Shown here in pieces: positions 3,201 through 22,386 of a stretch of DNA of 64,000 nucleotides (within the stretch, counting starts at the first letter, position 1; the number at the start of each line of letters is the position of its first letter). The notes beneath the pieces were generated by a model that was not told the origin of the DNA, searched no databases, and worked only from the letters and a program-made list of their open reading frames with translations. The DNA comes from Arthrobacter pascens (lineage in GTDB: Bacteria > Actinomycetota > Actinomycetes > Actinomycetales > Micrococcaceae). The stretch spans positions 186,001 to 250,000 of the forward strand of contig NZ_JAUSXF010000001.1 in the NCBI RefSeq assembly GCF_030816475.1, written 5' to 3'. The translations under genes were made by a program, and so were the position numbers.

Positions 3201-4418
3201 CTACGCCTTGACGTATCCGTTCGGGTTCAGCACGAACTTGGTTGCTGAGCCGGCATCGAATTCGGCGTAGCCGCGCGGCGCATCTTCAAGCGGGATTGCC
3301 TTGGCATTCACTGCCTTGGCGATCTGCACCTTGTCATGCAGGATGGCCATCATCAGTTGGCGGTTGTACTTCATCACGGGACACTGGCCGGTGGTGAAGG
3401 ACAGGGATTTTGCCCACCCGGTGCCCAGCGACAGCGAGAGGGACCCGTGCTGGGCTGCATCATCGATTCCCCCCGGGTCACCCGTGACGTACAGGCCCGG
3501 GATACCCAGCGCACCGCCTGCGGCGGTGATGTCCATGAGGGAGTTCAGCACGGTAGCAGGCGCTTCATGCGAGGCGTCCTTGCCATGTCCGCGGGCTTCG
3601 AACCCGACGGCGTCCACCCCGCAGTCCACTTCCGGAACGCCAAGGATCTGCTCAATCTGGTCCTTGGGGTCGCCCTTGGAGACATTCACCGTTTCGCAGC
3701 CGAACGACCGGGCCTGAACCAGCCGGTCCTCGTTGATGTCACCGACGATGACGACCGCCGCGCCCAGCAGCTGGGCACCGACTGCCGCGGCCAGGCCGAC
3801 GGGACCGGCGCCTGCGATATAGACGGTGGAGCCGACGCCGACTCCGGCCGTGACCGCCCCGTGGAACCCGGTGGGGAAGATGTCCGAGAGCATGGTCAGG
3901 TCCATGATTTTCTCCAGGGCCTGGTCCCGGTCCGGGAACTTCAGCAGGTTCCAGTCAGCGTAGGGTACCAGCACGTATTCTGCCTGGCCACCCACCCAGC
4001 CGCCCATGTCCACATAGCCGTAGGCGCTGCCGGGACGGTCCGGGTTGACGTTCAGGCAGATGCCGGTCTTGCGCTCCTTGCAGTTCCGGCAACGGCCACA
4101 GGAGATGTTGAAAGGTACGGAGACGATGTCTCCCACCTTGATGAACTCCACATCCGGACCGACCTCCACCACTTCGCCGGTGATTTCATGGCCGAGGACG
4201 AGGTCCTTCGGAGCGGTGGTGCGGCCGCGCACCATGTGCTGGTCCGAGCCGCAAATGTTGGTTGTCACCGTGCGCAGGATCGCACCGTGGGGTACCTTCC
4301 GGCCCACATTGGCCGGATTGACGCCAGGCCCGTCCTTGAGTTCGAACGTCGGGTAGTCGGTATTGATGATTTCGACGACACCGGGTTCCTTGTAGGCGAC
4401 GGCTCGGTTTCCTGACAT
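3201..4418 (-). CDS. fdhA: Glutathione-independent formaldehyde dehydrogenase, zinc-dependent
   Basis: A 405-residue medium-chain dehydrogenase close to the Pseudomonas putida glutathione-independent formaldehyde dehydrogenase. It oxidises formaldehyde with NAD to formate. Catalytic zinc elements are TNICGSDQHMVRGR and GHEITGEVVEVG; the structural zinc loop is CGRCRNCKERKTGIC; the nucleotide-binding turn is AGAGPVGLAAAVGAQLLGAA. The ATG at 4418 is chosen because AAGGAG lies five bases upstream; a GTG at 4424 would overlap that ribosome site. Its substrate would come from sarcosine and dimethylglycine oxidation when folate is limiting. A long structured stretch (4514-4657) separates it from the upstream glcG-like gene. 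Confidence 0.95.
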   Translation of the reverse strand: MSGNRAVAYKEPGVVEIINTDYPTFELKDGPGVNPANVGRKVPHGAILRTVTTNICGSDQHMVRGRTTAPKDLVLGHEITGEVVEVGPDVEFIKVGDIVSVPFNISCGRCRNCKERKTGICLNVNPDRPGSAYGYVDMGGWVGGQAEYVLVPYADWNLLKFPDRDQALEKIMDLTMLSDIFPTGFHGAVTAGVGVGSTVYIAGAGPVGLAAAVGAQLLGAAVVIVGDINEDRLVQARSFGCETVNVSKGDPKDQIEQILGVPEVDCGVDAVGFEARGHGKDASHEAPATVLNSLMDITAAGGALGIPGLYVTGDPGGIDDAAQHGSLSLSLGTGWAKSLSFTTGQCPVMKYNRQLMMAILHDKVQIAKAVNAKAIPLEDAPRGYAEFDAGSATKFVLNPNGYVKA

Positions 4419-4513
4419 GGACACTCCTTTTGGCTGCGGGGGGGTGGTGCTGGGATTGGTGCCAGGCTTTCCATATCGGGTTGCCTAGCACAGGTCCGGC
4501 AAGTTGCCGGCGT

Positions 4514-4598
4514 TGTCCCGTTGCCCGAAAGCGGTGCTTCGATGAGGATACCTCCCCAGGTTTCAGGCCACCGAAGCACCATTCACGGGAACGGGACA
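4514..4598 (-). promoter_or_regulatory. Long interrupted stem-loop in the leader of formaldehyde dehydrogenase
   Basis: Two nested perfect arms face each other. TGTCCCGTT plus CCCG (one-base bulge) pairs with CGGG plus AACGGGACA. Inside, after a symmetric 5x5 internal loop, GGTGCTTCG pairs with CGAAGCACC. The 30-base apical loop carries its own GAGG-ATA-CCTC hairpin. About 22 bp are paired in total. Such a structured element just ahead of a gene suggests an RNA regulator, an attenuator or a transcript-stability element. I do not recognise it as a known riboswitch. Confidence 0.45.
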
Positions 4599-4604
4599 GC
4601 TCAT

Positions 4605-4622
4605 CCTTCGCGAGGACGAAGG
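4605..4622 (-). other. Small hairpin between structured leader and glcG terminator
   Basis: CCTTCG-CGAGGA-CGAAGG, a 6-bp stem lying between the long stem-loop and the terminator-like hairpin, so three hairpins are stacked in about 145 bases. Confidence 0.4.
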
Positions 4623-4630
4623 CTGTCAGT

Positions 4631-4657
4631 GGGATGCCGCGCCGGGCACGGCATCCC
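4631..4657 (-). terminator. Hairpin after the GlcG/HbpS gene
   Basis: A perfect 9-bp stem (GGGATGCCG / CGGCATCCC) with a 9-base loop begins eight bases beyond the glcG-like stop codon. There is no T run, which is common in this group. Confidence 0.6.
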
Positions 4658-4665
4658 GGTCGTGC

Positions 4666-5070
4666 CTAATGCTGGATGGCCGCGCCTGCGGAAGCCACGG
4701 TGTGGTCGTTCTCGACGGTGCTGCCGCTGACGCCGATTGCACCAATGATGGATCCATCTTCACCGTGCAGCGGGAGTCCGCCCGGGAAAGTGATGAGTCC
4801 GCCGTTGGAGACCTCAATGTTGAACAGCGGGCCTCCGGGCTGGGACAGTTCGCCGATCGATCCCGTTGCCATGTCGAAGTAGCGGGCAGTGCGGGCCTTC
4901 TTGATGGAAATATCGATGCTGCCAAGCCAGGCACCATCCATGCGGGTGAAGGCCTTGAGGTTGCCTCCAGCGTCCACCACCGCGATGTTCATGGCCGTGC
5001 CGGTTTCGCGGGCCGAGTCGCGGGCAGCGCTGAGGACGGCGTCGGCCTGGGCTTGCGTGATATCAGACAT
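4666..5070 (-). CDS. GlcG/HbpS-family heme-binding protein (DUF336)
   Basis: A 134-residue single-domain protein of the GlcG/HbpS family. It shows the typical [20 protein letters not shown] strand and the glycine-rich [20 protein letters not shown] segment. Family members bind heme or small organic ligands; the reaction, if any, is unknown. It has no signal peptide, so it should be cytoplasmic. Start ATG 5070 follows GGGAGAAC. It is the first gene of the leftward unit that continues into formaldehyde dehydrogenase, moeA and fdhD, and a GATATATC operator lies 131 bases upstream. A role in formaldehyde or oxidant handling is only inferred from this position. Confidence 0.85.
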
Positions 5071-5192
5071 TGTTCTCCCTTGATCGTGTCTGTTATGTGT
5101 GGCGAAGTGCTGTGGTGGCTAATGCCCTGAGGGCATTTCGCAGACTGCCCGGCGCTGAACTTGGCACGCACGAGCCTGATATTTTCGTTTGG

Positions 5193-5210
5193 CTGATAAA
5201 GATATATCAG
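5193..5210. promoter_or_regulatory. Candidate GntR operator, site 1
   Basis: CTGATA-AAGA-TATATCAG contains the 8-base palindrome GATATATC (5201-5208) found also at 9156, 14972 and, with one change each, at 14995 and 15882. It lies upstream of the leftward glcG-formaldehyde dehydrogenase-moeA-fdhD unit. Confidence 0.55.
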
Positions 5211-5251
5211 TTACATCGTAGGACAGTCACTGGAGCATGTCCAGAGATTTC

Positions 5252-5854
5252 TTAGCGGCCGTGGATCAGGCTCAGCGCTTCGGCGCGGGCGGCGGGCAGC
5301 CGCAGTTCACCGCGGACGGCAGACGTGATGGTCTTTGCCCCCGGTTTACGCACGCCCCGCATGGACATGCACAAATGCTCGCACTCGATCACCACAATTG
5401 CGCCCAAGGGCCGCAGCGCTGCCACCAGGGCGTCCACCACCTGGGTGGTCAGTCTCTCCTGGACCTGTGGCCTCCGCGCAAAGACATCTACTAGCCTGGC
5501 CAGCTTGCTGAGGCCGGTGACCAGTCCTTCAGCGGACGGGATGTAGCCCACGTGTGCCACGCCATGAAACGGCACCAGATGATGCTCGCAGGTGGAATAG
5601 AACGGGATGTCCTTCACGATGACCATTTCGCTGTGGCCAAGATCGAAGGTCTTGTCCAGGACGGCGAGGGGATCCTGATGGAGCCCGCCAAACATTTCGG
5701 CGGCGGCGCGGGCTACGCGGGCCGGGGTGTCCGCCAGCCCGGGTCTTTCCGGGTCCTCGCCGATGGCCAGGAGGTATTCGCGGACTGCACGTTCTACCCG
5801 TGGGCCGTCCACACCCTTCGCGACGGTTGCCTCGGTCATGAGGGCTGTGTCCAC
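5252..5854 (-). CDS. folE: GTP cyclohydrolase I
   Basis: A 200-residue FolE, which makes dihydroneopterin triphosphate from GTP, the first step of folate synthesis. Zinc and active-site segments are [20 protein letters not shown] and [13 protein letters not shown], followed by [13 protein letters not shown]. Length and motif order are those of a normal bacterial FolE. It starts two bases after the stop of the molybdopterin oxidoreductase and is probably co-transcribed with it and the metF-like gene. This placement suggests a copy that raises folate supply when methyl groups are being oxidised; a housekeeping copy elsewhere cannot be excluded from this window. Confidence 0.95.
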
Positions 5855-5856
5855 GG

Positions 5857-8178
5857 TCAGGCCAGCTCAAGGCGGACGATGACGGACTTGGACGTTGGCG
5901 TGCCGCTGGTGTCGGCCACTGAGTCGAGCGGCACGAGGACGTTGGTTTCCGGGTAGTAGGCTGCCGCGCAGCCCTTCGGAGTCGAGTACGACACTATGCG
6001 GAAGTTTTCGGCCCGGCGTTCGGTCCCCTGGAATTCGGAGATGAGATGGACCATGTCCCCGTCTGTGAAGCCGAGCTCAGTGATGTCGTCGGCGTTGATC
6101 ATGACTACGCGGCGCCCGCCGTGGATGCCGCGGTAGCGGTCGTCCTTGCCGTAGATCGTGGTGTTGTACTGGTCATGGGAGCGCAGGGTCTGGAGGACGA
6201 GCCGTCCCGCGGGGACCCTGATGAATTCCAGTTCGTTGCCTGTGAAGTGGGCCTTGCCTGAAGCGGTGTCGAACTTCCTGGCGTCCCGGGGCGGGTGGGG
6301 AAGGACGAACCCGCCGGGGTTCTGGATCCGTTCCTCGAAATTCTCGAAGCCGCTGAGAACCGCCTCGATGTGTTTCCTGATGATGGAGTAATCGTCCCGC
6401 ATGGCGAGCCAGTCGGCTTTGGGGGTGTTGGGCAGCCGGAGGTTGTCGCTGCCAGTGAAGATTCTGTGGGCCAGGTTGCACACGATGGCCACCTCTGACT
6501 GCAGGTGCTCACTGGCGGGCTTAAGGCGTCCGCGGGAGGCGTGCACGGCACTCATCGAGTCCTCCACGGTCACCCTCTGGTCACCGCTGAGCTGGGTATC
6601 CCTCTCAGTGCGTCCGAGCGTCGGAAGGATCAACGCGCGGCGGCCCGTCGAAACGTGGGAATGGTTCAGTTTCGTGGAGATCTGCACGGTGAGGCGGGTG
6701 TTGGCCAGTGCCTGCTCGGTGACCTCGGAATCCGGAGCCGCCCGCACGAAGTTGCCGCCCATCCCGATAAAGACCCGAACCTTGCCGTCCCGCATGGCGC
6801 GGATGGCGGCCACGGTGTCGAAGCCATGCGCCCGGGGAGAAAGGAACTGGAATTCGTGGTCGAGCCGGTCGTGGAAGTTCTCCGGCATCTTCTCAAAGAT
6901 GCCCATGGTCCGGTCACCCTGGACGTTGGAGTGGCCGCGCACGGGGCAGACGCCGGCTCCGGGCTTGCCGATGTTGCCCTGGAGAAGCAGGACGTTGACC
7001 ACGTCGCGGAGGGTGGGTACCGAGTGCTTGTGCTGCGTCAGGCCCATGGCCCAGCAGACGATGGTAGCGCTCGAAGCCAGCAGGCGTTCGCCGGTGGACC
7101 TGATCTGTTCCAGTGTCAGCCCGGTGGCCTCGACGATGTCGTCCCATTCCGCCTTTTCCAGGTACCGCAGGTATTCGTCGATGCCGACGGTGTGGTCCTT
7201 GATGAATGCATGGTCCAGCACCGTCGGGAGACCAGGCGTCCTGCGCCCCTGGGCTTCGGCTTCAAGAAGGTATTTGCCGAGGCCCTGAAAGAGGGCCTGG
7301 TCGCCGCCGGCGCGGATCTGCAGGAAGTCGTCAGTCAGTTCTGTGCCCACCACCATGCCGGACAGGTTCTGCGGATTCTCGAACCGAAGGAGCCCGGCCT
7401 CGGGAAGCGGATTCACCGAGACAATGACCGCGCCGTTCTTCTTCGCCTTCTCCAATGCGCTCAGCATGCGCGGGTGGTTGGTTCCGGGATTCTGCCCTGC
7501 CACGAAAATCAGCGACGCTGTCTCCAGGTCCGTGAGGCTGACGGAGCCCTTTCCGATGCCGATGGTTTCCACCAGGGCCGAGCCGGACGATTCATGACAC
7601 ATGTTGGAGCAGTCGGGCAAATTGTTCGTCCCGATGCCCCGAACAAGCAGCTGGTATGCGAAGGCTGCCTCGTTCGACGTCCGCCCCGAGGTGTAGAAGA
7701 CCGACTGGCCGGGATGGTCCATTTCCCTGATCTCCCGGGCAATCAGCTCATAGGCATCATCCCACTCGATCGGCTTGTAGTGGGTTGCGCCTTCGTCGAG
7801 GAGCATCGGATGGGTCAGCCGGCCCTGCTGGCCCAGCCAGTAGTCATCCCGCGTCTTCAGGTCCGCAATCGAGTGCTGTGCGAAGAATTCAGGCGTGACG
7901 CGGCGGCGGGTGGCTTCTTCGGCCACAGCCTTGGCGCCGTTCTCGCAGAATTCGGCAGCATTGCGCTTTTCGTGTTCGGGCCAGGCGCAGCCCATGCAGT
8001 CAAAGCCGTCAACCTGGTTGACTGCCAGGAGTGTCTGGATGCTGCGCAGCGGGCCCATCTGCTCAAGGGAAATTTTCAGTGCGTTCGCAACAGCCGGAAG
8101 GCCTACGGCGGTCGTTTTGGGCTTCGTCAGGCTCAGCTTTGACTCGTCGATATTCTGCTTGGGGGCTTTGGAAGCCAT
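5857..8178 (-). CDS. Molybdopterin oxidoreductase, FdhF/YdeP family (probable formate dehydrogenase)
   Basis: A 773-residue bis-MGD oxidoreductase of the YdeP-like branch. Near the N-terminus are C61-x2-C64 and C78 ([23 protein letters not shown]). The expected molybdenum ligand is C194 in [17 protein letters not shown], where FdhF of Escherichia coli has selenocysteine. Other family blocks are [32 protein letters not shown] and [19 protein letters not shown], and a C-terminal molydopterin-dinucleotide-binding region. Formate oxidation is inferred from nearby fdhD, moeA, purU and formaldehyde dehydrogenase. No diaphorase or iron-sulfur partner subunit is encoded beside it. Start ATG 8178 follows GGGAAGA. 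Confidence 0.85.
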
Positions 8179-8190
8179 GTGATCTTCCCT

Positions 8191-9066
8191 TCAGATCGTG
8201 GCAGGAAACGTGGAATGGAGCTGTTGCTCGGGCTCAACGCCCTGGATGGTCCGCAGTGTCTGCAGACCATCCAGGAGGCCCGGCAAGCGGCCAAAGTCGT
8301 TGAAAGTGTAAACGTGGAACCCGGCAAAGAGCGGGTCGCCCGCCAACTCCTGGTGAATCTCGTGAATCAGGCGTCCGCTGTCATAGCTAAGCAAGTCATT
8401 CCGGCGCCAGAGGGCTCCCGCCATCCCTGTCCCACGGGCAAGCTTGAGGGAGCGGCCGACGCCGAGGCGTGCTCCCATGGACACCAGTTTCCTGACGGAG
8501 ACCGGGCCAGGTACTCCAACCCAGACAGGCGTCTGGATACCGCTCTTGCGGATTGCCCGGACGTAACGGCTGATCGCCCCGGCGGAAAAGCACATCTGCG
8601 TGACTATTGAGGACGCCAAGGGCGCTTTCATCTGGAGGCTGCTGCTGAGTTGCTCCCGGCTAAGTTGCGGATGGCCTTCCGGGTAGCCGGCAATACCGAC
8701 GGAGAAGTCAGGTGAATAGGCTTTGACTGCCTCAAGGAGTTGTCCGCTCCACGAATAGGGACCTGCAGGCGTACGCCGATCTCCGGCCACAAGAAAAAGC
8801 TCCGAGACGCCGGCGTCCTGCAATTGCAGCAGCAGCGAATGCAGTTCCTCCTGGCCGGTAATGCTGCGGGCGGCGAGATGGGGGACTGTGTGATACCCCA
8901 TGCTGGCCAGGCTGACGGACGCTTCCACAGTCAGTCGAGGCCCGTGGTGCGGGAGGCACGTCACGCTGACCGAATCCGAAGTGTCAAAAGCCACGGGGAG
9001 TTTCGCCAGGAGATCGGCGGACGGCACAACTTCCAGCCGTACCCTGGCAACAGCTTCCTTGCTCAT
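8191..9066 (-). CDS. Methylenetetrahydrofolate reductase-like protein
   Basis: A 291-residue TIM-barrel protein of the MetF superfamily, which reduces 5,10-methylene- to 5-methyl-tetrahydrofolate with FAD. Matching segments are TVPHLAARSI, SELFLVAGDRRTPAGPYSW, FSVGIAGYPEGHPQ, IVTQMCFSAGAISRYVRAI and FHVYTFNDFGRLPGLL. The reading frame is open to a GTG at 9186, but ATG 9066 is preferred because GGAGAG precedes it and homology begins there. It is divergent enough that a different direction or folate substrate is possible. It heads the unit with the molybdopterin oxidoreductase and folE, and faces a GntR gene across a shared control region. Confidence 0.8.
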   Translation of the reverse strand: MSKEAVARVRLEVVPSADLLAKLPVAFDTSDSVSVTCLPHHGPRLTVEASVSLASMGYHTVPHLAARSITGQEELHSLLLQLQDAGVSELFLVAGDRRTPAGPYSWSGQLLEAVKAYSPDFSVGIAGYPEGHPQLSREQLSSSLQMKAPLASSIVTQMCFSAGAISRYVRAIRKSGIQTPVWVGVPGPVSVRKLVSMGARLGVGRSLKLARGTGMAGALWRRNDLLSYDSGRLIHEIHQELAGDPLFAGFHVYTFNDFGRLPGLLDGLQTLRTIQGVEPEQQLHSTFPATI

Positions 9067-9131
9067 TACTCTCCGTTCTTCGGCATCACCGTAACGCCTG
9101 ATCGGCGGTTTTCTGTTTTTGCCCTGGAGGG

Positions 9132-9165
9132 TTGACATTTTTTGGATGAAATATTGATATATCAG
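9132..9165 (+). promoter_or_regulatory. gntR promoter with overlapping operator, site 2
   Basis: TTGACA (9132-9137), a 17-base spacer and TGATAT (9155-9160) make a good sigma-70-type promoter reading toward the GntR gene at 9235. The palindrome TGATATATCA (9155-9164) covers the -10 box, the layout expected for autorepression. It also lies upstream of the divergent metF-like gene. Confidence 0.6.
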
Positions 9166-9234
9166 TTCTAGGAATACTATGTACACGAGGCCTTCGCGTC
9201 AAGGCTCCGCAGTACATCGGGAGGAGACCTGAAA

Positions 9235-9930
9235 ATGGCAAGCGTTGGAGAACTACCATCGGACGCGGCAGACTCATACCTGCCAACGAGGCAGGAGGAC
9301 GAATCCTTTGCCGACTTTGCCTACAGGGCTCTCTGCGATGAGCTGATCGTCTTGGACATCAAACCTGGCGAGCCACTGAACGACGAAGTGATTTCGAGGC
9401 GGCTCGGCGTGGGCAGGACACCGATACGGGAAGCCATGAAGCGCCTTGAGGGCGACCACCTGGTGGTGGCCTATCCCCGGCGGGGAACGTTCGCCGCCGG
9501 GGTGGACATCACGGATCTGGCTGAAATCTCGGAGATCCGACAGCTTCTGGAGCCTGCGGCAGCTTCGCGGGCCGCCCGGATGGCGTCACCGCAGCTTCGG
9601 CGGGAGATCAGGGAGTTTGCCAAGGAAGTGGGAGAACTCCTGCCACGCCTGCACTCCCAGCGGGACCTCATGCGGCTGGATATGCGGGTGCACCGGATGA
9701 TCTACCGGGCCACGGGAAGCCGGCACCTTGAAGATGTCCTGATCCGGTACGACAATCTGGCGACGCGGATCTGGAGCCTTGTGCTGGAGAAACTGCCTCC
9801 CGTTTCTGAGCATATTGCCCAGCACATTGAGCTGCTCGAATGCATCGCTGAAGGGGATTCCGAAGCTGCTGCGCGGCTGACCACCAAGCACGTGACTGAC
9901 TTCGAGAACCTGATCAGGGCTGTCCTGTAG
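9235..9930 (+). CDS. GntR-family regulator, FadR/FCD type (first copy)
   Basis: A 231-residue regulator. The N-terminal winged helix includes IKPGEPLNDEVISRRLGVGRTPIREAMKRLEGDHLV and YPRRGTFAAG. The C-terminal all-helical FCD domain carries likely metal ligands in LDMRVHRMIY, IAQHIELLECI and LTTKHVTDFE. Start ATG 9235 follows GGGAGGAG. It is divergent from the metF-like operon and convergent with folD. It closely resembles the GntR protein at 15077-15754 (shared HLEDVLIRYDNLATRIW). The operator on its own promoter suggests autorepression and control of the flanking one-carbon genes; the effector may be glycine, sarcosine or a folate-linked metabolite, which is a guess. Confidence 0.92.
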   Translation: MASVGELPSDAADSYLPTRQEDESFADFAYRALCDELIVLDIKPGEPLNDEVISRRLGVGRTPIREAMKRLEGDHLVVAYPRRGTFAAGVDITDLAEISEIRQLLEPAAASRAARMASPQLRREIREFAKEVGELLPRLHSQRDLMRLDMRVHRMIYRATGSRHLEDVLIRYDNLATRIWSLVLEKLPPVSEHIAQHIELLECIAEGDSEAAARLTTKHVTDFENLIRAVL

Positions 9931-9941
9931 GCCGGACAGCA

Positions 9942-10817
9942 TTACACGGCGGTTCCCCGGACCAGGGCCCGCGATTGTTCCCTTGCCGCCTCGACGGTAT
10001 GCAGGAGGAGCAGGGACGTGGTCACTGAGCCGACGCCGCCCGGAACGGGCGTCAGCGCCGCCGCGATGCCCTTGACGCTGGCCTCGTCCACGTCTCCCAC
10101 GAGGGACCCGTCAGGAAGGACGTTGGTGCCGACGTCGATCACTACTGTCCCGGCGGAAATATGGCCGCCGTTCAGCAGCCCCGTGCGTCCGGCGGCGACG
10201 ACCACGACGTCGGCCGTCCTGGTGTAGTTCTCCAGCGGCCCCGACCTGGAGTGGCAGACGGTGACCGCGGCGTCGCGTTCCAGCAACAGCAGGGACAGCG
10301 GCTTTCCGACGACGGCGGACCGTCCGATCACGACGACGTTCCGGCCCGCCACCGGGATGTCGAAGTGGTCAAGGATCTCGATGACGGCCCGGGCCGTCGC
10401 GGGAGCGAACGAGGGCTGGCCGACAGCCAGCCGGCCAAGGCTCAGCGGATTCGCACCGTCAATGTCCTTTTCGGGGGCAATGTGCCCGACAAGTTCATCT
10501 GCATCGACGCCGGGCGGTAGCGGCGTCTGCAGGATGATGCCGTTGATGGATGGCTCGGCGCTGAGGTCCTTCAGGACAGAAGCCAAAACCTGTCCCGTCG
10601 CATCCTGGCCCAGGTCCACTATCCGGCAATTGATGCCTGCACCTTCAGCAGCCCGTTCGATGGACCGCACATACCAGTGCGTGGAGCCGTCGTCGGTGGC
10701 CACAACCACGGCAAGGGTAGGGCGCAGGCCGTCGATGTCGAGGTCCCTGGCTTCGTCCCGGGCCTTCTGCTGGATGAGTTGAGCCAGTGCCCGTCCGGAC
10801 AGGAGTGTGGTGCTCAT
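9942..10817 (-). CDS. folD: Bifunctional methylene-THF dehydrogenase / methenyl-THF cyclohydrolase
   Basis: A 291-residue FolD, which oxidises 5,10-methylene-THF with NADP and hydrolyses methenyl-THF to 10-formyl-THF. Conserved parts are GINCRIVDLGQDATGQVL, NGIILQTPLPPGVDA, the APEKDIDGANPLSLGRLA loop, the Rossmann turn GRNVVVIGRSAVVGKPLSLLL and TPVPGGVGSVTTSLLL. The usual substrate-lysine region reads ATDDGSTHWYVRSIERAAEG: tyrosine is present (Y in HWYVRS), but the lysine normally four residues later is replaced by glutamate, so cyclohydrolase activity may be weak. It overlaps the upstream cyclodeaminase gene by four bases and ends the purU-dmg-fchA-folD operon. Confidence 0.93.
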   Translation of the reverse strand: MSTTLLSGRALAQLIQQKARDEARDLDIDGLRPTLAVVVATDDGSTHWYVRSIERAAEGAGINCRIVDLGQDATGQVLASVLKDLSAEPSINGIILQTPLPPGVDADELVGHIAPEKDIDGANPLSLGRLAVGQPSFAPATARAVIEILDHFDIPVAGRNVVVIGRSAVVGKPLSLLLLERDAAVTVCHSRSGPLENYTRTADVVVVAAGRTGLLNGGHISAGTVVIDVGTNVLPDGSLVGDVDEASVKGIAAALTPVPGGVGSVTTSLLLLHTVEAAREQSRALVRGTAV

Positions 10818-11440
10818 CCGAGGATCCTTTCGCGCACGCGCTTCACCAGCGAATCGGCTGCCAGGATGACCTTGTCCTCAAGGGCGCCGGTCTGGTCAGC
10901 CAGCCGGGCACGGGCTTCGGTGTCCTTGATGGCCACCACGTTGATGTCGATGTTCACCCGGGCAGTGGTGGCGGCTGCCCGGGCGGCGTCGGCGGCGGCG
11001 GCAACGTCGCTGATCACGTTGGCATTGGCCACCTCAAAGAGCTCCGTGGCAAGATCCACGACGGCGCCGGCGAGGAGGATTAGTTGTGCCGGTGTCTTCG
11101 CGGCCAGGATGAGCGCGTCCTGGATGGACGCTGCTCGTGCGGCCTTAAGTCCGTCGGTGCCGGCCGGGAGCTTGTACGCATCGATCACGCCCTGGAACGC
11201 ATGCTGGTCGGCGTCCGCGAGGCGCACGGCCTCGACCACCAGTCCGTCGGCGGTGCCGATGATCCTTGTCACGAGATCGGCGTGCTGCTCGTACTTCGCG
11301 CCCGTGGAGTACCTGGCCACCATGGCGACAAGTGCCGCCGCCTGGGCGGCGTGCAGCGCTGCGGCTGCACCGCCGCCCGGGGTGGGTTCCCGCGAGGCAA
11401 GCCTGGCGAGGTAGTCATGTATTGTTTCTGAGCTGATCAT
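10814..11440 (-). CDS. fchA: Cyclodeaminase/cyclohydrolase-family protein (FchA-like)
   Basis: A 208-residue helical protein of the FTCD_C family, which includes methenyl-THF cyclohydrolase (FchA) and formimino-THF cyclodeaminase. The N-terminal folate-binding motif REPTPGGGAAAALHAAQAA is clear. It is followed by alanine-rich helices and ANVISDVAAAADAARAAATTARVNI. Placed between dimethylglycine oxidase and folD, it most likely hydrolyses methenyl-THF to 10-formyl-THF on the way to PurU. It may compensate for a weak cyclohydrolase half of the adjacent FolD. The start is ATG 11440, 16 bases after the oxidase stop. Confidence 0.88.
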   Translation of the reverse strand: MISSETIHDYLARLASREPTPGGGAAAALHAAQAAALVAMVARYSTGAKYEQHADLVTRIIGTADGLVVEAVRLADADQHAFQGVIDAYKLPAGTDGLKAARAASIQDALILAAKTPAQLILLAGAVVDLATELFEVANANVISDVAAAADAARAAATTARVNIDINVVAIKDTEARARLADQTGALEDKVILAADSLVKRVRERILG

Positions 11441-11456
11441 GTGTCTTCCTGGGCTG

Positions 11457-14003
<2,547 letters not shown>

Positions 14004-14918
14004 TTACCGGAACACGACAGTGCTGGTTTGATCCAGCAACACACGGTGCTCGCAGTGCCACCGCACGGCGCGGGACAGTGCCAGAGCTTCCGCATCCTGC
14101 CCGACTGTGGAAAGGGCAGTCGGTCCGTAGCTGTGATCGACCCGGATGACTTCCTGTTCGATGATTGGGCCCTCATCCAGCTCGGCGGTGACGTAGTGGG
14201 CTGTGGCGCCCACCAGCTTGACGCCACGGTCGTACGCCTGGTGGTACGGGCGGGCACCCTTGAATCCGGGCAGGAAGGAGTGGTGGATGTTGATGGCGCG
14301 GCCCTCAAGGGAGCGGCAGAGGTCATCGGACAGCACCTGCATGTACCGGGCCAGCACCACGAGGTCGATGTCATATTCGTCGATGAGATCCAGCAGTCGC
14401 TGTTCGCCCTCTGCCTTTGTCTCCGGTGTCACCGGGACGTAGAGGAAGGGGAGGCCGGCTGCCTCAGCCATGGCCCGGTGGGTTTCATGATTGGAAACGA
14501 TCAGGACAATATCGCCGCCCAGGCTACCGCCGCGCCAGCGGAAGATCAGGTCATTCAGGCAATGGCCGAACTTGGACACCATGACCAGGATGCGCTGCTT
14601 GGTCTGGTCATGAAAGCTGAACTTCATCTCGAAACGGTCGGCGATCGCACTGAACTCCTCCTGGAGTTTCTCCGGTGTGTACTCCGGGGAACCCGAGAAC
14701 GCGGTGCGCAGGTGCAGCGTCTGGCGGAGACCGTCGTCGAACTGCTGGTGTTCATCGATGTTGAAACCACGTTCGAAGAGAAAAGTAGTGACCGCCTGGA
14801 CGATACCGGCACGTTCGACACACGACAATGTGAGCACGAACTTCTGGGCCTTGTCTTCCACGCGGGGCTCGGTCTGAGTCAGGGTGCTGGTTGATGAGTC
14901 TGTAGCCACTAGGGTCAT
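14004..14918 (-). CDS. purU: Formyltetrahydrofolate deformylase
   Basis: A 304-residue PurU: an N-terminal ACT domain (FVLTLSCVERAGIVQAVTTFLF) and a C-terminal formyltransferase fold with LARYMQVLSDDL, INIHHSFLPGFKGARPYHQAY and VKLVGATAHYV. It hydrolyses 10-formyl-THF to formate and THF, regenerating the carrier for dimethylglycine and sarcosine oxidation. The catalytic NIHHSFLP segment is intact. Start ATG 14918 follows GGAGGAGGC. It is the first gene of the operon with dmg, fchA and folD and is divergent from the second GntR gene. Its formate product can be oxidised by the molybdopterin enzyme at 5857-8178. Confidence 0.95.
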   Translation of the reverse strand: MTLVATDSSTSTLTQTEPRVEDKAQKFVLTLSCVERAGIVQAVTTFLFERGFNIDEHQQFDDGLRQTLHLRTAFSGSPEYTPEKLQEEFSAIADRFEMKFSFHDQTKQRILVMVSKFGHCLNDLIFRWRGGSLGGDIVLIVSNHETHRAMAEAAGLPFLYVPVTPETKAEGEQRLLDLIDEYDIDLVVLARYMQVLSDDLCRSLEGRAINIHHSFLPGFKGARPYHQAYDRGVKLVGATAHYVTAELDEGPIIEQEVIRVDHSYGPTALSTVGQDAEALALSRAVRWHCEHRVLLDQTSTVVFR

Positions 14919-14963
14919 GCCTCCTCCTTAGAGAGATTGCCTTTAGACATATCCGTTAGATAG

Positions 14964-14992
14964 ATTCTGTAGATATATCCGGCGATTGTGAA
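14964..14992 (-). promoter_or_regulatory. purU operon promoter with operator in the spacer, site 3b
   Basis: On the minus strand TTCACA (14992-14987), a 17-base spacer and CAGAAT (14969-14964) form a plausible promoter. GATATATC (14972-14979) lies inside the spacer, where a bound repressor would block the polymerase. Confidence 0.5.
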
Positions 14993-15025
14993 CTGATATA
15001 TTAGGCTTGGGAATCAGCGTATACT
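14993..15025 (+). promoter_or_regulatory. Operator site 3a and -10 box of the second gntR
   Basis: CTGATATATTAG (14993-15004) is the same palindrome with one change. TATACT at 15020-15025 is a good -10 box for the GntR gene at 15077; no clear -35 box is seen at normal spacing, and the operator occupies that position. Confidence 0.5.
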
Positions 15026-15076
15026 GGTCGTTGGAGGAGGTCAATAGCCTCTCTGGAACGGAAAGGGGTTCAGGTT

Positions 15077-15754
15077 ATGGCAGTTGAAGTTTTGGCAGGC
15101 ACGGACGATGCCGTCAAAAAATCGCTCGCGGAAGCGGCGTATGAGCGCATTCGCGACCGGCTGCTGATGCTTGACATCAAACCCGGCGATCTTGTCAACG
15201 ACGACCACCTCGCCAAGGACCTCGGCATGGGAAGGACCCCAGTGCGGGAAGCCCTCAAGCGGCTCGAGCTTGACCGGCTGGTTGTTTCGTACCCGCGCAG
15301 GGGAACTTTCGCCACGCGGGTAGAGGTCACTGACCTGGCGTTCATTTCCGAAATCCGGACCCAGCTTGAACCGCTCGCGGCCTCCCGCGCTGCCCGGGTG
15401 GCCACGGAACGGCAACGGGACGAGCTGCGAGCTGTGTTGCGGGCGGTTGAGTCCTTCGATACCCAGGCGGCTTCCGTCGTCGAAACCCTGCGGCTCGATG
15501 CTCGCGTGCACCAGGGAATCTATGCAGCTGCGGGCAATCCGCACCTTGAAGATGTTTTGATCCGCTATGACAACCTCGCCACCCGCATCTGGTGCATGGT
15601 GCTGGATCGGCTTCCCGACCTCTCCCGCCATGTACACGAGCACGTGAATCTGCTCGGTGCAGTCATTGACGGGGATGAGGCACGTGCCGGTGACCTGGCG
15701 AGGAGCCACGTCAGCGGGTTCGAGGATGCTGTCCGAAAGGCCCTATTCGCCTAG
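15077..15754 (+). CDS. GntR-family regulator, FadR/FCD type (second copy)
   Basis: A 225-residue paralogue of the regulator at 9235. The winged helix has IKPGDLVNDDHLAKDLGMGRTPVREALKRLELDRLVV and the same YPRRGTFA turn. The FCD domain has LDARVHQGIY, HLEDVLIRYDNLATRIW, LSRHVHEHVNLL and ARSHVSGFE. It lies between the divergent purU operon and the glyA-sox operon, both preceded by GATATATC-like sites, so it probably controls both; this is inference. A strong terminator follows, insulating it from glyA, which has its own promoter. Confidence 0.92.
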   Translation: MAVEVLAGTDDAVKKSLAEAAYERIRDRLLMLDIKPGDLVNDDHLAKDLGMGRTPVREALKRLELDRLVVSYPRRGTFATRVEVTDLAFISEIRTQLEPLAASRAARVATERQRDELRAVLRAVESFDTQAASVVETLRLDARVHQGIYAAAGNPHLEDVLIRYDNLATRIWCMVLDRLPDLSRHVHEHVNLLGAVIDGDEARAGDLARSHVSGFEDAVRKALFA

Positions 15755-15784
15755 CCCTGACCCCAACCCCAGCAGCGATATCTG

Positions 15785-15811
15785 AAAGCGCGGCCCCAGA
15801 GCCGCGCTTTT
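15785..15811 (+). terminator. Terminator of the second gntR gene
   Basis: A perfect 10-bp stem AAAGCGCGGC / GCCGCGCTTT, loop CCCAGA, followed by T. It lies 31 bases after the gntR stop codon. Confidence 0.85.
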
Positions 15812-15838
15812 GGTGTCCCGGCAATCATTGAAAATCTG

Positions 15839-15891
15839 TTGACACCCGCTGGAGTCGATAGCATACTTGAGTCACGAAACTAATATATCAA
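15839..15891 (+). promoter_or_regulatory. glyA-sox promoter and operator site 4
   Basis: TTGACA (15839-15844), a 17-base spacer and CATACT (15862-15867) precede glyA. CTAATATATCAA (15880-15891) lies just after the expected transcription start, and a half-site GGATATTAG follows at 15894. The arrangement fits repression by one of the GntR proteins. Confidence 0.55.
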
Positions 15892-15917
15892 CAGGATATT
15901 AGCTATAGCTAGGAGAA

Positions 15918-17219
15918 ATGATGGTCGACGTTCTGACCCGCACGCTCGCAGAGACCGATCCTGCAATCCACGCAGCCGTGCACCAGGAACTCCTGCGCCA
16001 GCAGGGCACGCTGGAAATGATCGCCTCCGAAAATTTTGCGCCGACCGCCGTCATGGAAGCCCAGGGATCGGTACTGACGAACAAGTACGCCGAAGGCTAC
16101 CCGGGCAAGCGGTATTACGGCGGCTGCGAACACGTTGACGTGGTCGAACAGCTGGCCATTGACCGCCTCAAGTCATTGTTCGGCTCCGAGTTCGCTAATG
16201 TTCAGCCGCACTCCGGCGCCCAGGCCAACGCAGCGGCCATGTTCGCCCTGATCCAGCCCGGCGACACTATCCTGGGGCTGAACCTTGCACACGGTGGCCA
16301 CCTGACGCACGGGATGCGGATCAACTTCTCCGGCAAGCTCTACAAGGTCGTCCCGTATGGCGTCAATGAGGACACCATGCTGATTGACATGGCCGAAGTT
16401 GAGCGCTTGGCGGTTGAGAACAAGCCGAAGCTGATCGTCGCCGGCTGGTCCGCGTACTCCCGCCAGCTGGACTTCGCTGAATTCCGCCGCATCGCGGACC
16501 TGGTAGGGGCGTACTTGATGGTGGATATGGCCCACTTTGCCGGCCTGGTGGCCGCAGGGCTTCACCCCAATCCCGTGCCTCACGCCCACATCGTCACCAG
16601 CACCACCCACAAGACCCTTGGCGGACCGCGCGGGGGAGTGATCCTGACCAACGACGCCGACATTGCCAAGAAGGTCAACTCCGCGGTGTTCCCCGGACAG
16701 CAGGGCGGCCCGCTGGAGCACGTCATTGCTGCGAAGGCTGTGGCGTTCAAGCTCGCTGCTGAGCCGGCGTTCCGCGAACGCCAGGAACGCACCCTGGAAG
16801 GCGCTGGCATCATCGCAGAACGCATTCTGGCTGCTGACGTTGCAGAGTCCGGCGTGACCGTCGTCAGCGGTGGCACCGATGTGCACCTGGTCCTGGTAGA
16901 CCTGCGCAATTCTGAACTGGACGGACAGCAGGGCGAAGACCGCCTGCACCGTATCGGGATCACGGTCAACCGCAACGCCGTCCCATTCGACCCGCGTCCG
17001 CCGATGGTCTCTTCCGGCCTTCGTATTGGCACCCCGGCACTGGCCACACGCGGGTTCGGGAAGGCAGAATTCACCGAGGTCGCCGACATCATCGCGGCAG
17101 CCCTCAAGCACGATTTCAGCGACGAGACAGTGGCGGAACTTCGGCAGCGGGTTGAAATCCTGGCCGGAAAGTTCCCGCTCTACCCCAATCTCTCCTCTGA
17201 CGCGAATGAGGTGGCATGA
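15918..17219 (+). CDS. glyA: Serine hydroxymethyltransferase
   Basis: A 433-residue PLP enzyme that interconverts glycine plus 5,10-methylene-THF with serine and THF. The PLP-lysine motif [15 protein letters not shown] places the Schiff-base lysine at residue 232. [20 protein letters not shown] and [19 protein letters not shown] are typical. AGGAGA precedes two consecutive ATG codons, at 15918 and 15921. It leads the operon with sarcosine oxidase and serine dehydratase and overlaps soxB by four bases. In this setting it should run toward serine, consuming both products of sarcosine oxidation: glycine and methylene-THF. Confidence 0.97.
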
Positions 17220-18436
17220 TGGCCGATCTGCTTCCGGAGCACCCGGATTTCCTGTGGCGGAACCCGGAACCGAAGTCCTCCTACGACGCCGTGATCGTTG
17301 GTGGCGGCGGGCACGGCCTGGCCACCGCCTATTTCCTGGCCAAGAACCACGGCATGACCAACATTGCTGTCCTCGAAAAGGGCTGGCTGGCTGGCGGCAA
17401 CATGGCCCGCAACACCACCATCATCCGTTCCAACTACCTGTGGGACGAGAGCGCGGCCATCTACGAGCACGCCCTCAAACTTTGGGAAATCCTGCCGGAG
17501 GAACTCGAATACGACTTCCTTTTCAGCCAGCGCGGCGTGATGAACCTGGCCCACACCCTGGGCGATGTGCGCGAGAGCATGCGGCGAGTGGGTGCGAACA
17601 AGCTCAATGGCGTGGATGCTGAATGGCTGGATCCGCAGCAGGTCAAGGAACTGTGCCCCATCCTGAACATCAGCGACAACATCCGCTACCCTGTCATGGG
17701 CGCCACCTACCAGCCGCGGGCTGGCATCGCCAAGCACGACCATGTGGCCTGGGCCTTCGCCCGCAAGTGCGATGAGCTCGGTGTGGACATCATCCAGAAC
17801 TGTGAAGTCACCGGCTTCGTCAAGGACGGCAACCGCGTCACCGGCGTCAAGACCAACCGCGGCACTATCAACACCGAAAAGGTTGGTTTGTGCGCGGCCG
17901 GCCACAGCAGTGTTCTGGCCGAGATGGCGGGCTTCCGGCTCCCCATCCAGTCGCACCCGCTCCAGGCACTGGTCTCCGAACTGCACGAGCCGGTCCACCC
18001 GACAGTGGTGATGTCCAACCACGTGCACGTCTACGTTTCCCAGGCCCACAAGGGCGAGCTGGTCATGGGCGCCGGGGTGGACTCCTATAACGGTTACGGC
18101 CAGCGCGGTTCCTTCCATGTGATCGAGCACCAGATGGCTGCCGCCGTCGAGCTCTTCCCGATCTTTGCCCGTGCGCACGTGCTCAGGACCTGGGGCGGCA
18201 TCGTTGACACAACGCTGGATGCTTCCCCGATCGTGGGAACCACTCCGGTGGACAACATGTTCGTGAACTGCGGCTGGGGCACCGGTGGCTTCAAGGGCAC
18301 TCCTGCGGCCGGCCTCACCTTTGCCCACACCATCGCCACCGGAACACCGCACCACCTGAACAAGCCGTTTGCGCTGGAGCGGTTCGAAACCGGCGCCCTG
18401 ATCGATGAGCACGGCGCAGCCGCCGTGGCCCACTAG
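17216..18436 (+). CDS. soxB: Sarcosine oxidase beta subunit
   Basis: A 406-residue FAD/FMN subunit of heterotetrameric sarcosine oxidase, which oxidises sarcosine to glycine with oxygen. The dinucleotide motif [18 protein letters not shown] is at residues 25-42. The histidine in [11 protein letters not shown] falls at position 173 if translation starts at the second Met, matching the histidine known to bind FMN covalently in the Corynebacterium enzyme. The C-terminal [16 protein letters not shown] block is intact. It overlaps glyA by four bases (ATGA) and is followed within 15 bases by soxD. Confidence 0.97.
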
Positions 18437-18450
18437 AAGAGAGTCCGGAC

Positions 18451-18750
18451 ATGCTCCTCATTTCATGCCCCAACTGCGGCTCCCGCGACGAGACCGAGTT
18501 CCACTACGGCGGCCAGGCCCACGTGGCCTACCCGGAAAACCCGAACGAGCTGAACGACCGCGAATGGGCCGAGTACCTGTTCTACCGGGACAACACCAAG
18601 GGCGCCTTCGCCGAACGCTGGCTGCACAGCACCGGCTGCCGCCAGTGGTTCAACATGCTCCGCGACACGGTCACCTACGAGATCCAGGCGATCTACCCGA
18701 TGGGCACCCCCCGCCCCAGCACCACCGCCCCGGAAGGAGCAACCCCGTGA
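18451..18750 (+). CDS. soxD: Sarcosine oxidase delta subunit
   Basis: A 99-residue zinc subunit. C6, C9, H59 and C63 ([21 protein letters not shown]) match the zinc ligands known for SoxD. The segment [13 protein letters not shown] is typical. The stop codon overlaps the GTG start of soxA (GTGA). It has a structural role in the tetramer at the interface of the alpha and beta subunits. Confidence 0.96.
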
Positions 18751-21700
18751 CTTCCCAGAATCCCGCGACTTCCCAGAACGCCCGCCTCGCCGCCGGCGGA
18801 CGCATCGACCGCACCATCTCCTGGCGTTTCACCGTGGACGGAGAGGAATTCACCGGCCACCCCGGCGACACGTTGGCCTCCGCCCTGCTCGCCAACGGCC
18901 GGGTCGCCGTCGGAAACTCCCTCTATGAGCGCCGGCCCCGCGGCATCATGTCCGCAGGCGTGGAGGAAGCCAACGCCCTGGTCAGGGTGGAACCGCGATT
19001 CCCGGGCCACGTGGCCGAGTCCATGCTCCCCGCCACCACCGTCACCCTGGTGGACGGCCTGAAGGCCGGCCTGCTTAACGGCCTGGGCCGGCTGGATCCC
19101 GAGGATGACCGCGCGGAGTACGACAAGAAGTACGTCCACACCGACGTCCTGGTGATCGGCGGCGGCCCGGCCGGGCTGGCGGCGGCCCGCGAAGCTGTCC
19201 GTTCCGGCGCCCGCGTCATGCTGCTGGACGACCAGCCCGAGCTCGGCGGATCCCTGCTGTCCGGCTCCACGGCTCCCGAACTGGTGGAGACCATCGAAGG
19301 CAAGCCTGCCCTGGAATGGGTGGCGGACATCGAAGCCGAGCTCGTCTCCGGCGCCGAATCCACCGTCCTGAACCGCACCACCGCTTTCGGCGCCTACGAC
19401 GCCAACTATGTCATCGCCGTCCAGAACCGCACCGACCACCTGTCCACACCGGCCGCGCCGGGTGTTTCCCGGCAGCGTATTTGGCACATCCGTGCCAACC
19501 AGGTGGTGCTGGCCCCCGGCGCCCACGAACGGCCGCTGGTCTTTGAAAACAACGACCGCCCCGGCATCATGCTGGCCTCGGCCGTCCGCAGCTACCTCAA
19601 CCGCTACGCGGTGGCCGCTGGGCAGCGCGTTGTCATCAGCACCACCAACGACAGTGCTTACGCCCTGGCCGCAGACCTGCGCGCCGCCGGCATCAAGGTC
19701 GCCGCCGTCGTCGACGCCCGCCCCAAGCTCACCGCGGTGGCTGCTGCCGCCGTCGAAGCCGGGACCCGGGTACTGATCGGCAGCGCGGTGGCCAACACCG
19801 CCGCCGGAACCGATACCGCCGGAACCGATACCGCCGGAACCGATACTGCCGGAACAGACACTGGCCGCCTCACGGGCGTCACCGTCCGCAGCATCAACGA
19901 CGACGGCGTCCTCACCTCCGGGGTCGAAGAGATCGCCTGCGACCTGCTGGCCGTCTCCGGCGGCTGGAGCCCGCTGGTCCACCTGCACTCGCAGCGGCAG
20001 GGCAAGCTGCGCTGGGACGATGACCTGGCCGCCTTTGTGCCGAGCACCGTGGTCCCCAACCAGCAGATAGTCGGCTCCGGCCGCGGCAGCTTCGAACTCG
20101 CCGATGTACTGGCCGAGGGCATCTCGGCCGGAGCATCCGCCGCCATCGCCGCCGGGTTCGAGTCTGCTACGCAGCCCACCCCGCTCAGTGAGCCGAAGGC
20201 CTCCGGACCCACCCGCCAGCTGTGGCTGGTACCGGGGGAGGCCGGCACTCCGGACGACTGGCACCACCACTTCGTTGACTTCCAGCGCGACCAGTCCGTG
20301 GCAGACGTCCTGCGCTCCACCGGAGCCGGGATGCGGTCCGTGGAGCACATCAAGCGCTACACCTCCATCAGCACCGCCAACGACCAGGGCAAGACCTCCG
20401 GCGTCAACGCGATCGGCGTCATCGCCGCCGCACTGCGCCAGGCAGGCGAAGCCTCCCGCGGCATCGGCGAGATCGGCACCACCACCTACCGCGCACCGTT
20501 CACCCCGGTGGCATTCGCGGCCCTGGCCGGACGCCAGCGCGGCGAATTGTTCGATCCCGCCCGCGTCACCTCCATCCACCCCTGGCACGTGACCAAGGGA
20601 GCCTTGTTCGAGGACGTCGGGCAGTGGAAGCGGCCCTGGTACTACCCGCAGCCGGGGGAGGACATGGACGCAGCAGTGCTGCGCGAGTGCGCCGCGGTCC
20701 GTGAATCCGTGGGGTTCATGGACGCCACCACCCTCGGCAAGATCGAAATCCGGGGCAAGGACGCAGGGGAGTTCCTCAACCGGATCTACACCAACGCATT
20801 CAAGAAGCTCGCGCCCGGTTCCGCACGCTACGGCGTGATGTGCACCCCGGACGGGATGATCTTCGACGACGGCGTGACCCTCCGCCTCGACGATGACCGC
20901 TTCTTCATGACCACCACCACCGGCGGTGCGGCCAAAGTGCTGGACTGGCTGGAGGAATGGCTGCAGACCGAATGGCCGGAACTGGACGTGCATTGCACCT
21001 CGGTGACCGAACAGTGGAGCACCATTGCCGTCGTCGGGCCCAAATCCCGCGCGGTCCTGGCCAAGGTTGCCCCGCAGCTGGCCGCCAACGGCGGGCTGGA
21101 GGCCGACGCCTTCCCGTTCATGACCTTCCGCGAAACCACCCTCGCCTCCGGCGTTCGTGCCCGGGTCTGCAGGATCTCGTTCTCCGGCGAGCTGGCCTAC
21201 GAAATCAACGTGCCGTCCTGGTACGGGCTGAACACCTGGGAAGCCGTTGCCGCGGCCGGTGCCGAGTTCAACATCACCCCCTATGGCACCGAGACCATGC
21301 ACGTGCTCCGGGCCGAAAAGGGCTACCCGATCGTCGGGCAGGACACCGACGGCACCGTGACTCCGCAGGATGCAGGAATGGACTGGATCATTTCCAAGGC
21401 CAAGGACTTCATCGGCAAACGCTCGTACACCAGGGTTGATGTGGCACGCGGGGACCGTAAGCACCTGGTCAGCGTCCTGCCCGTGGACGGAACGTTCCGG
21501 CTGCCGGAAGGCACCCAGCTGGTGGAAAAGGGCCGATCCACAAACCCTGCCTACGGACCGGTGCCCATGGAAGGCTTCGTCACCTCCAGCTACCACTCCG
21601 CCGCCCTGGGCAGGTCCTTCGCCCTGGCCCTGATCAAGAACGGCCGCAACCGGATCGGACAGACCCTCGTGGCTGCCGCCGGCGACCGGCTCGTTGACGT

Positions 21701-21755
21701 CGTTGTCGCAGAAACCGTACTTTTTGACCCCGAAGGAGAGCGTAAAGATGGCTGA
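18747..21755 (+). CDS. soxA: Sarcosine oxidase alpha subunit
   Basis: A 1002-residue subunit. The GTG start at 18747 is chosen because GGAAGGAG lies seven bases upstream and it overlaps the soxD stop; the frame stays open further upstream inside soxD. Domains are an N-terminal ferredoxin-like fold ([21 protein letters not shown]), a dinucleotide domain ([19 protein letters not shown], binding NAD), and a C-terminal aminomethyltransferase-type folate domain ([20 protein letters not shown]). It receives formaldehyde equivalents from the beta subunit and forms 5,10-methylene-THF. A four-unit 15-bp tandem repeat encoding AGTDT lies at 19803-19862. It overlaps soxG by eight bases. Confidence 0.97.
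19803..19862 (+). repeat. In-frame 15-bp tandem repeat inside soxA
   Basis: Four units of GCCGGAACCGATACC; the first two are identical, the third differs by one base and the fourth by a few. It encodes four AGTDT blocks in a loop between two strands of the dinucleotide domain. The near identity of units 1-3 suggests recent slippage expansion. Confidence 0.9.
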
Positions 21756-22386
21756 AACAGCGGCACCCAAAACCTCCAACGAGACGAACCTGTCCCTGCG
21801 CACCAGCCCGGCTGCCCTGCTCAGGGCAGCGTTCGAAACCGGCTCCGTCCACGGCACCGTAGAACTGAGCGAAATCACCTTCCTGACCATGGTGGGCCTC
21901 CGCGTAGGCCGGGACACCGACGCCGGGCAGCGGATCGCCTCAGTCACCGGCGGCCTGCCGGCCACATGCGGCGCCGTGAGCGGTACCGGCGACACTTCCG
22001 TCCTGTGGCTCGGGCCCGAGGAATTCCTGGTGGTAGCACCGCTGGAAGCCCACGAGTCGCTCGGCGGCGACCTGATCCAGGCCTTGAAGGAAGCCCTCGG
22101 CGACGGCGAAGGCCAGGTGGTGGACCTCTCCGCCAACCGCACCACCTTCGAGCTCACCGGGCCGCGTTCCCGGGCAGTCCTGGAAAAGGGCTGCTCCCTG
22201 GACCTCCATCCGCGCCAGTTCAAGGCCGGCACGGCGCTGTCCACGGAGATCGGTAATATCCCTGCGGTTCTGTGGAAGACCGGCGACGAGAGCTACCGGA
22301 TCTTCCCGCGTGCCTCGTTCGCCGACTTCCTGGGCCGCTGGCTCCTCGACGCAATACGGGAGTACGCCTCCCCTGAGGTCCCCTAA
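21748..22386 (+). CDS. soxG: Sarcosine oxidase gamma subunit
   Basis: A 212-residue SoxG with the folate-domain-like fold of this family ([63 protein letters not shown]). ATG 21748 follows GAAGGAGAG inside the end of soxA. It completes the heterotetramer. The stop is immediately followed by the sdaA start, so all six genes from glyA form one operon. Confidence 0.96.

Follow-up and report, generated by a model that had tools for sequence, protein, structure and literature searches.

We analysed a 64-kb stretch of DNA from Arthrobacter pascens (hereafter the window, C1:186001-250000 within a genome of 4.68 Mb), whose region from 3.2 to 23.8 kb contains methyl-group catabolism genes, including two genes for GntR-family regulators with an FCD domain (gntR-1 and gntR-2). 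Sequence comparison suggests that the palindrome ACTGATATATCAGT serves as operator for a GntR/FCD repressor clade that includes both proteins, a reading to which we assign a probability of about 0.88. The regulator would be a repressor of a known kind; its regulon is apparently undescribed and, extending to many Actinomycetes, is broader than the original prediction had stated.

The only copies of the 8-mer GATATATC in the window are those at positions 5201, 9156, and 14972 (3 against 0.02 expected), and a one-mismatch search recovered the altered copies previously reported at 14995 (GATATATT) and 15882 (AATATATC). All five sites are intergenic, between glcG and folE, between the metF-like (methylenetetrahydrofolate reductase [MTHFR]-like) gene and gntR-1, between purU and gntR-2 (two sites), and between gntR-2 and glyA; they account for every ATATAT hexamer in the window, five in all. 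If a single mismatch is tolerated, the window contains nine copies against 3.93 expected, a modest raw excess reached or exceeded in 3 of 100 shuffles. The genome contains 13 exact copies (reversed control, 3), three of which fall inside a single 9.8-kb stretch of the window (P ~3e-6). The positions, the placement outside genes, and the improbable clustering claimed in the original prediction were thus all borne out.

Candidate sites were scored with a matrix built from other genomes, with the window sites excluded. Four 14-bp candidate operators ranked highest in the window: ATTGATATATCAGT (9153..9166; 27.3, the best) in the gap between the MTHFR-like gene and gntR-1, a site that is kept in gntR-1 orthologs; ACTGATATATTAGG (14992..15005; 22.9) in the purU/gntR-2 gap; ACTAATATATCAAC (15879..15892; 22.0) before glyA; and AAAGATATATCAGT (5198..5211; 20.5) before glcG-fdhA on the minus strand. 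The next score was 6.9. The extended palindromes that had been described were found with good flanks at these four sites, but the exact copy at 14972 has poor flanks; it lies in a weak box (GTAGATATATCCGG, 14969..14982) that scored just 5.3, with its core 23 bp from that of the strong operator, and is the weakest of the five. The flanks count for more than the 8-mer itself. Among the genomic candidates returned by two pattern searches, all others scored below the four good window sites, so that the many equally good matches in unrelated genes that would have spoken against an operator did not appear. For CTGATATATCAG with up to 2 mismatches, the window sites took ranks 1-4 of 37 genomic places, and ranks five and six scored 11.2 and 14.3 as full 14-mers.

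We rejected GATATATC alone as the signal, since its ten copies elsewhere in the genome lie in loci with best matrix scores of 8.3 or less. Separately, two copies of the 8-mer 48 bp apart (1382732 and 1382780) make up a larger inverted repeat, CGCGATATATCTTGA...TCAAGATATATCGCG (C1:1382732-1382787, L322), that precedes a DUF4097 gene; with a matrix score of -1.5, this pair is probably the site of another regulator.

The association of the palindrome with the regulator genes was surveyed with GntR-2 as the query against 120 genomes of the same family, 118 of which gave some match. The clade was bounded at an identity of at least 41% (at least 109 bits); the next matches had 84 bits or less. A first set comprised 80 loci with clade members and 20 with other GntR genes, leaving out eleven clade matches (ten with identities of 41-45%, the other, G094:C24, close to the end of its contig), and all other GntR genes below 90 bits in the fetched loci and the window served as controls (n = 24). 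A second set comprised 80 further loci from named genomes (the best 80 of 588), in genera including Arthrobacter, Streptomyces, Nocardioides, Geodermatophilus, Amycolatopsis, Rhodococcus, Mycolicibacterium, and Brevibacterium. The two sets share species, and together they hold 187 distinct proteins. The closest named GntR-2 among the matches listed was from an Arthrobacter (93%). Of 296 genomes in a class-wide search, 39 gave a match at 1e-30; 32 of these were far past the threshold, and the other 7, near it, may fall outside the clade. Judged by these comparisons, both GntR proteins belong to one clade that is widespread in Actinomycetes.

When all 256 palindromic 8-mers were counted upstream of 85 clade genes, GATATATC was found before 58 and the runner-up before 11; it preceded only 1 of the 24 control genes. 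Allowing up to 3 mismatches, ACTGATATATCAGT was present before 73 of the 84 first-set clade genes with more than 200 bp upstream, against 1 of 84 shuffled sequences, and in 98 of 110 cases in the second set (0.45 expected from shuffles). In the pooled sets the site was found in 171 of 194 cases, whereas 120 draws of scrambled palindromes, repeats included, reached at best 19 (median 1), the top member itself having the GATATATC core. Counted by distinct clade proteins, 164 of 187 have the site upstream. Exact CTRATATATYAG occurred at 50 places in 35 of the 120 genomes (reversed control, 5 places), that is, in 34 of the 66 genomes that have a clade member but in 1 of 54 without one (Fisher 1.8e-10); the corresponding numbers for the reversed control were 3 of 66 and 2 of 54. 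In the one clade-free genome that has it (L311), the site is inside an open reading frame (ORF). The palindrome thus tracks the GntR clade, mostly before glyA-sox or purU, which supports the GntR regulon for methyl-group catabolism originally proposed. In a group of small-genome actinobacteria (L287-L303), the clade member mostly stands beside a distant dmgO-like gene (35-38% identity), and sites like ACTGATATATCATC are often close to the start codon.

The palindrome is common to the regulator genes and their divergent targets. The next divergent gene was glyA for 52 of the 85 first-set clade genes, all with the site, and purU for 13, 12 of them with the site; a further 16 had another or no annotated gene opposite, and 10 of these had the site. 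Beyond the cluster, we sampled 12 (L304-L315) of the 50 exact CTRATATATYAG sites. Eight were intergenic and one (L312) was within the 5' extension of a purU frame. The genes behind these sites included a class I aminotransferase, found in three genomes and sharing 82-91% identity with the A. pascens copy, folD, purU twice, and a choline BCCT transporter. In the A. pascens genome, ACTCATATATCAAG (matrix score 14.3) lies approximately 60 bp before the unlinked class I aminotransferase gene (C1:2308417, L316:2017), and at six other aminotransferase loci a site of 15-23 bits was found in four (one being the genome of L304) and was lacking in two. This aminotransferase gene is likely to be an additional target of the regulon. 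The aminotransferase genes with a preceding site were C1:2308417 and those at L304, L305, L315, L355, L357, and L359. At L306 and L309, an exact site lies directly before a gene for a membrane protein with no Pfam match, which we take to be YkvI-like.

Several observations weigh against the operator reading. A similar site (ACTGATATATCAGT, up to 3 mismatches) precedes 2 of the 24 control GntR genes, 23 of the 187 clade members have no site within 3 mismatches, and none of the 4 first-set clade genes (of 85) that face dmgO has one. Three of the 12 off-cluster exact sites are inside ORFs, and the loose pattern with 2 mismatches is barely enriched in the A. pascens genome (37 places against 32 in the control). 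Among 29 other fdhA loci in relatives, a single one (L325) has a site within 1.5 kb of the gene, although L108, L109, and L112 also have one before fdhA; the site before glcG-fdhA (20.5) is rarely conserved, and for this arm of the regulon the original prediction claims too much. Finally, the G of the FadR-subfamily motif TKGT/ACMA is absent, the corresponding matrix position being A in 96%.

This last point can be set against the operators of the FadR subfamily (Suvorova et al. 2015, PMC4494728). Read as TGAT-AT-ATCA, the operator matches the 2-nt spacing class; the operators described there are likewise palindromes in divergons with the regulator gene, and additional half-sites are described for them too. 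The conserved G is A in our operator, yet that G is not universal in the subfamily, BioR and NanR being exceptions (PMC4494728). The word sarcosine does not occur in the main text of that paper. Among the clade sites, 18 of 179 carry a G (or an opposing C) in one of their halves. Alignment columns 43 and 41 differ most between the 161 A-type members and the 18 G-type members, but the latter are few and partly related, so that we do not put forward either residue as the cause of the A/G change. Only 3 of 187 clade members carry Arg in column 43, which aligns with Arg35 of FadR. The exchange of A for G in the operator offers a natural experiment on DNA reading by GntR proteins.

Both proteins have an N-terminal GntR winged helix (PF00392, 50.3 and 52.2 bits; cut-off 27) and a C-terminal FCD domain (PF07729, 78 and 78.5 bits; cut-off 24.3). 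No named NCBIfam GntR equivalog was reached, the best being TIGR03338 with 79.1 and 73.0 bits against a cut-off of 271.5. The predicted structure of GntR-2 has six C-terminal helices (mean predicted local distance difference test score [pLDDT], 90.6), and its fold matches PmiR, VanR, and TM0439. The regulons and ligands of PmiR, 7u5q, TM0439, and VanR Atu1419 differ from those of the system described here. These solved FCD regulators (PmiR, 7xp0; 7u5q; TM0439, 3sxy; VanR Atu1419 with DNA, 6za3) are 22-30% identical. Asp141, His145, and His211 are present in 186 of 187 clade members and His189 in 184 of 187, in agreement with the Asp plus three His by which metal-binding FCD regulators are recognized. 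By likeness to HypR and TM0439, these four residues are predicted to be metal ligands. HypR of Streptomyces coelicolor is likewise an FCD protein with metal-binding histidines; it is an autoregulated repressor in amino-acid-derivative catabolism, with a different regulon and a different site, CTNTGC(A/C)ATGTCAC (PMC6608401).

Across the clade, there is hardly any variation in the DNA-reading segment GRTPVREALKRLE or in the wing YPRRGTFA, and both paralogs therefore probably read the same site. That just one of them uses these sites, the other having drifted to a different site or role, strikes us as rather unlikely. GntR-1 and GntR-2 are only ~51% identical and fall into separate groups of the tree, GntR-1 in a group of six members (support 1.0) inside one of 56 (0.67) and GntR-2 in a group of 25 (0.997), and the maintenance of two genes side by side suggests some division of labour. 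However, the palindrome lies before the gene of each protein and is kept in the orthologs of each, and the read-out segments are nearly identical. There is also a precedent for sharing in Corynebacterium glutamicum, where GntR1 and GntR2, also two FCD-type actinobacterial paralogs, were shown to share targets and to be redundant (PMC2230225). Unlike the window pair, they control gluconate genes and ptsG, and their sites fit TNGTNNNACNA within 1-2 mismatches, unlike the operator found here (PMC2230225).

A promoter scan of positions 4900-16000 (11.1 kb) called four sigma70-like promoters, those of glyA, purU, the MTHFR-like gene, and glcG (1.8 expected, sd 1.3), and none for gntR-1 or gntR-2. 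For glyA, the MTHFR-like gene, and glcG, the site begins 3-11 bp past the -10 element, the 5198 site lying 3 bp downstream of a -10-like TACGAT, and the boxes of the purU promoter overlap its site. The candidate glyA promoter (TTGACA-17-CATACT, 15839..15867, plus strand) is conserved: all 5 aligned loci keep it together with the operator and the half-site GGATATTAG. This GATATTAG-like half-site (15895..15901) adjoins the glyA operator. In the candidate purU promoter (TTCACA-17-CAGAAT, 14964..14992, minus strand), CAGAAT is not kept in orthologs. Upstream of gntR-1, a TTGACA-like box before the 9156 site and GGAATA(C/T)TAT downstream of it are each kept in 4 of 5 aligned loci. The -10 of gntR-1 could be either the 9156 site, as was previously suggested and as the TTGACA-like box would fit, or the downstream GGAATA(C/T)TAT.

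In the alignment of the purU/gntR-2 regions, the operator is present in 12 of 12, and 11 of 12 have the ATATAT-type box upstream and TATACT. Two ATATAT cores 20-26 bp apart were found at 18 loci, the spacing being exactly 23 bp at 17 of them; this is the distance from -35 to -10, and TATACT lies 24 bp away on the opposite side of the operator. On this geometry, the two divergent promoters, purU and gntR-2, probably both have their -35 under the single operator at 14992. The 14972 box may then be the purU -10 region, a second weak operator being the alternative; its earlier listing as a shared site goes too far, and with a matrix score of 5.3 it is probably a promoter element. The purU leader (14943-14982) contains two AT-rich boxes where most aligned orthologs have one, resembling a small local duplication.

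These positions also bear on the direction of control. Some FadR-subfamily proteins activate from upstream sites, as GntR1/2 do at ptsG (PMC2230225), and the regulators here might be mainly activators, or activate some targets while repressing others; we regard this as improbable, since the sites lie in positions that suit occlusion, at the -35 for purU/gntR-2 and just past the predicted -10 for glyA, the MTHFR-like gene, and glcG. It is very improbable that the boxes are instead AT-rich elements of promoters or are bound by a different regulator, such as the product of the IclR gene at 27657-28463, despite the 23-bp distance of the 14972 box from the strong core, since such elements would neither follow one GntR clade between genomes nor maintain a 14-bp palindrome; for the 14972 box alone, it is the favoured explanation.

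Among the common carbon and nitrogen sources are sarcosine, dimethylglycine, and betaine, whose demethylation gives rise to formaldehyde and one-carbon folates that need disposal. In the mechanism that we infer, a repressor dimer would bind ACTGATATATCAGT over the promoters of purU, gntR-2, glyA-sox, gntR-1/MTHFR-like gene, and glcG-fdhA, and the bound repressor would exclude RNA polymerase, with autoregulation of the gntR genes. Release would be caused by a methyl-group pathway metabolite (sarcosine, dimethylglycine, or a one-carbon product) bound at the FCD metal site and would switch on demethylation, disposal of one-carbon folates, and formaldehyde oxidation together. More tentatively, and in our estimate with somewhat less than an even chance, the clade may sense methyl-group load across the class, in a previously undescribed role extending from small-genome actinobacteria to Streptomyces, and may, with its G-to-A operator (TGATATATCA), also tie in unlinked genes. 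If so, these three activities would be tied to the unlinked aminotransferase, a transporter-like membrane protein, folD, and a choline transporter. Regulator clade, operator, and target genes can be named together across many actinobacteria, which makes control of the pathway testable with one 14-bp probe. In the open-access literature searched, including for the string TGATATATCA and without RegPrecise, we found no description of this regulon.

Profile searches identified in the cluster fdhA, a glcG/HbpS-like gene, a gene for an FdhF/YdeP-type oxidoreductase, the MTHFR-like gene, gntR-1, folD, fchA, a dimethylglycine-oxidase-like gene, purU, gntR-2, soxB, soxA, soxG, and serine dehydratase genes; folE and glyA are presumptive names given by us from their sequences. 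On the minus strand are fdhA (formaldehyde dehydrogenase; TIGR02819, above cut-off) with the glcG/HbpS-like gene (PF03928) at 3201..5070, the gene for the dimethylglycine-oxidase-like FAD/GcvT protein (Pfam) at 11457..13949, and purU (formyltetrahydrofolate deformylase; TIGR00655, above cut-off) at 14004..14918. On the plus strand are the GntR/FCD regulator genes gntR-1 (9235..9930; Pfam) and gntR-2 (15077..15754; Pfam and predicted structure), glyA, the leading gene of the glyA-sox unit (15918..17219; ORF list), and the soxB, soxA, soxG, and serine dehydratase genes (17216..23760; Pfam). The order glyA-soxBDAG-sdaA-purU is known from Arthrobacter and Corynebacterium (Meskys 2001 and Suzuki 2005, as cited in PMC3534580); that sarcosine cluster has the same enzyme genes as the window, and the citing paper contains no mention of GntR. 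The MTHFR-like gene (8191-9186) scored 60.6 bits against a MetF equivalog cut-off of 293.7, and its product may have another role than MetF.

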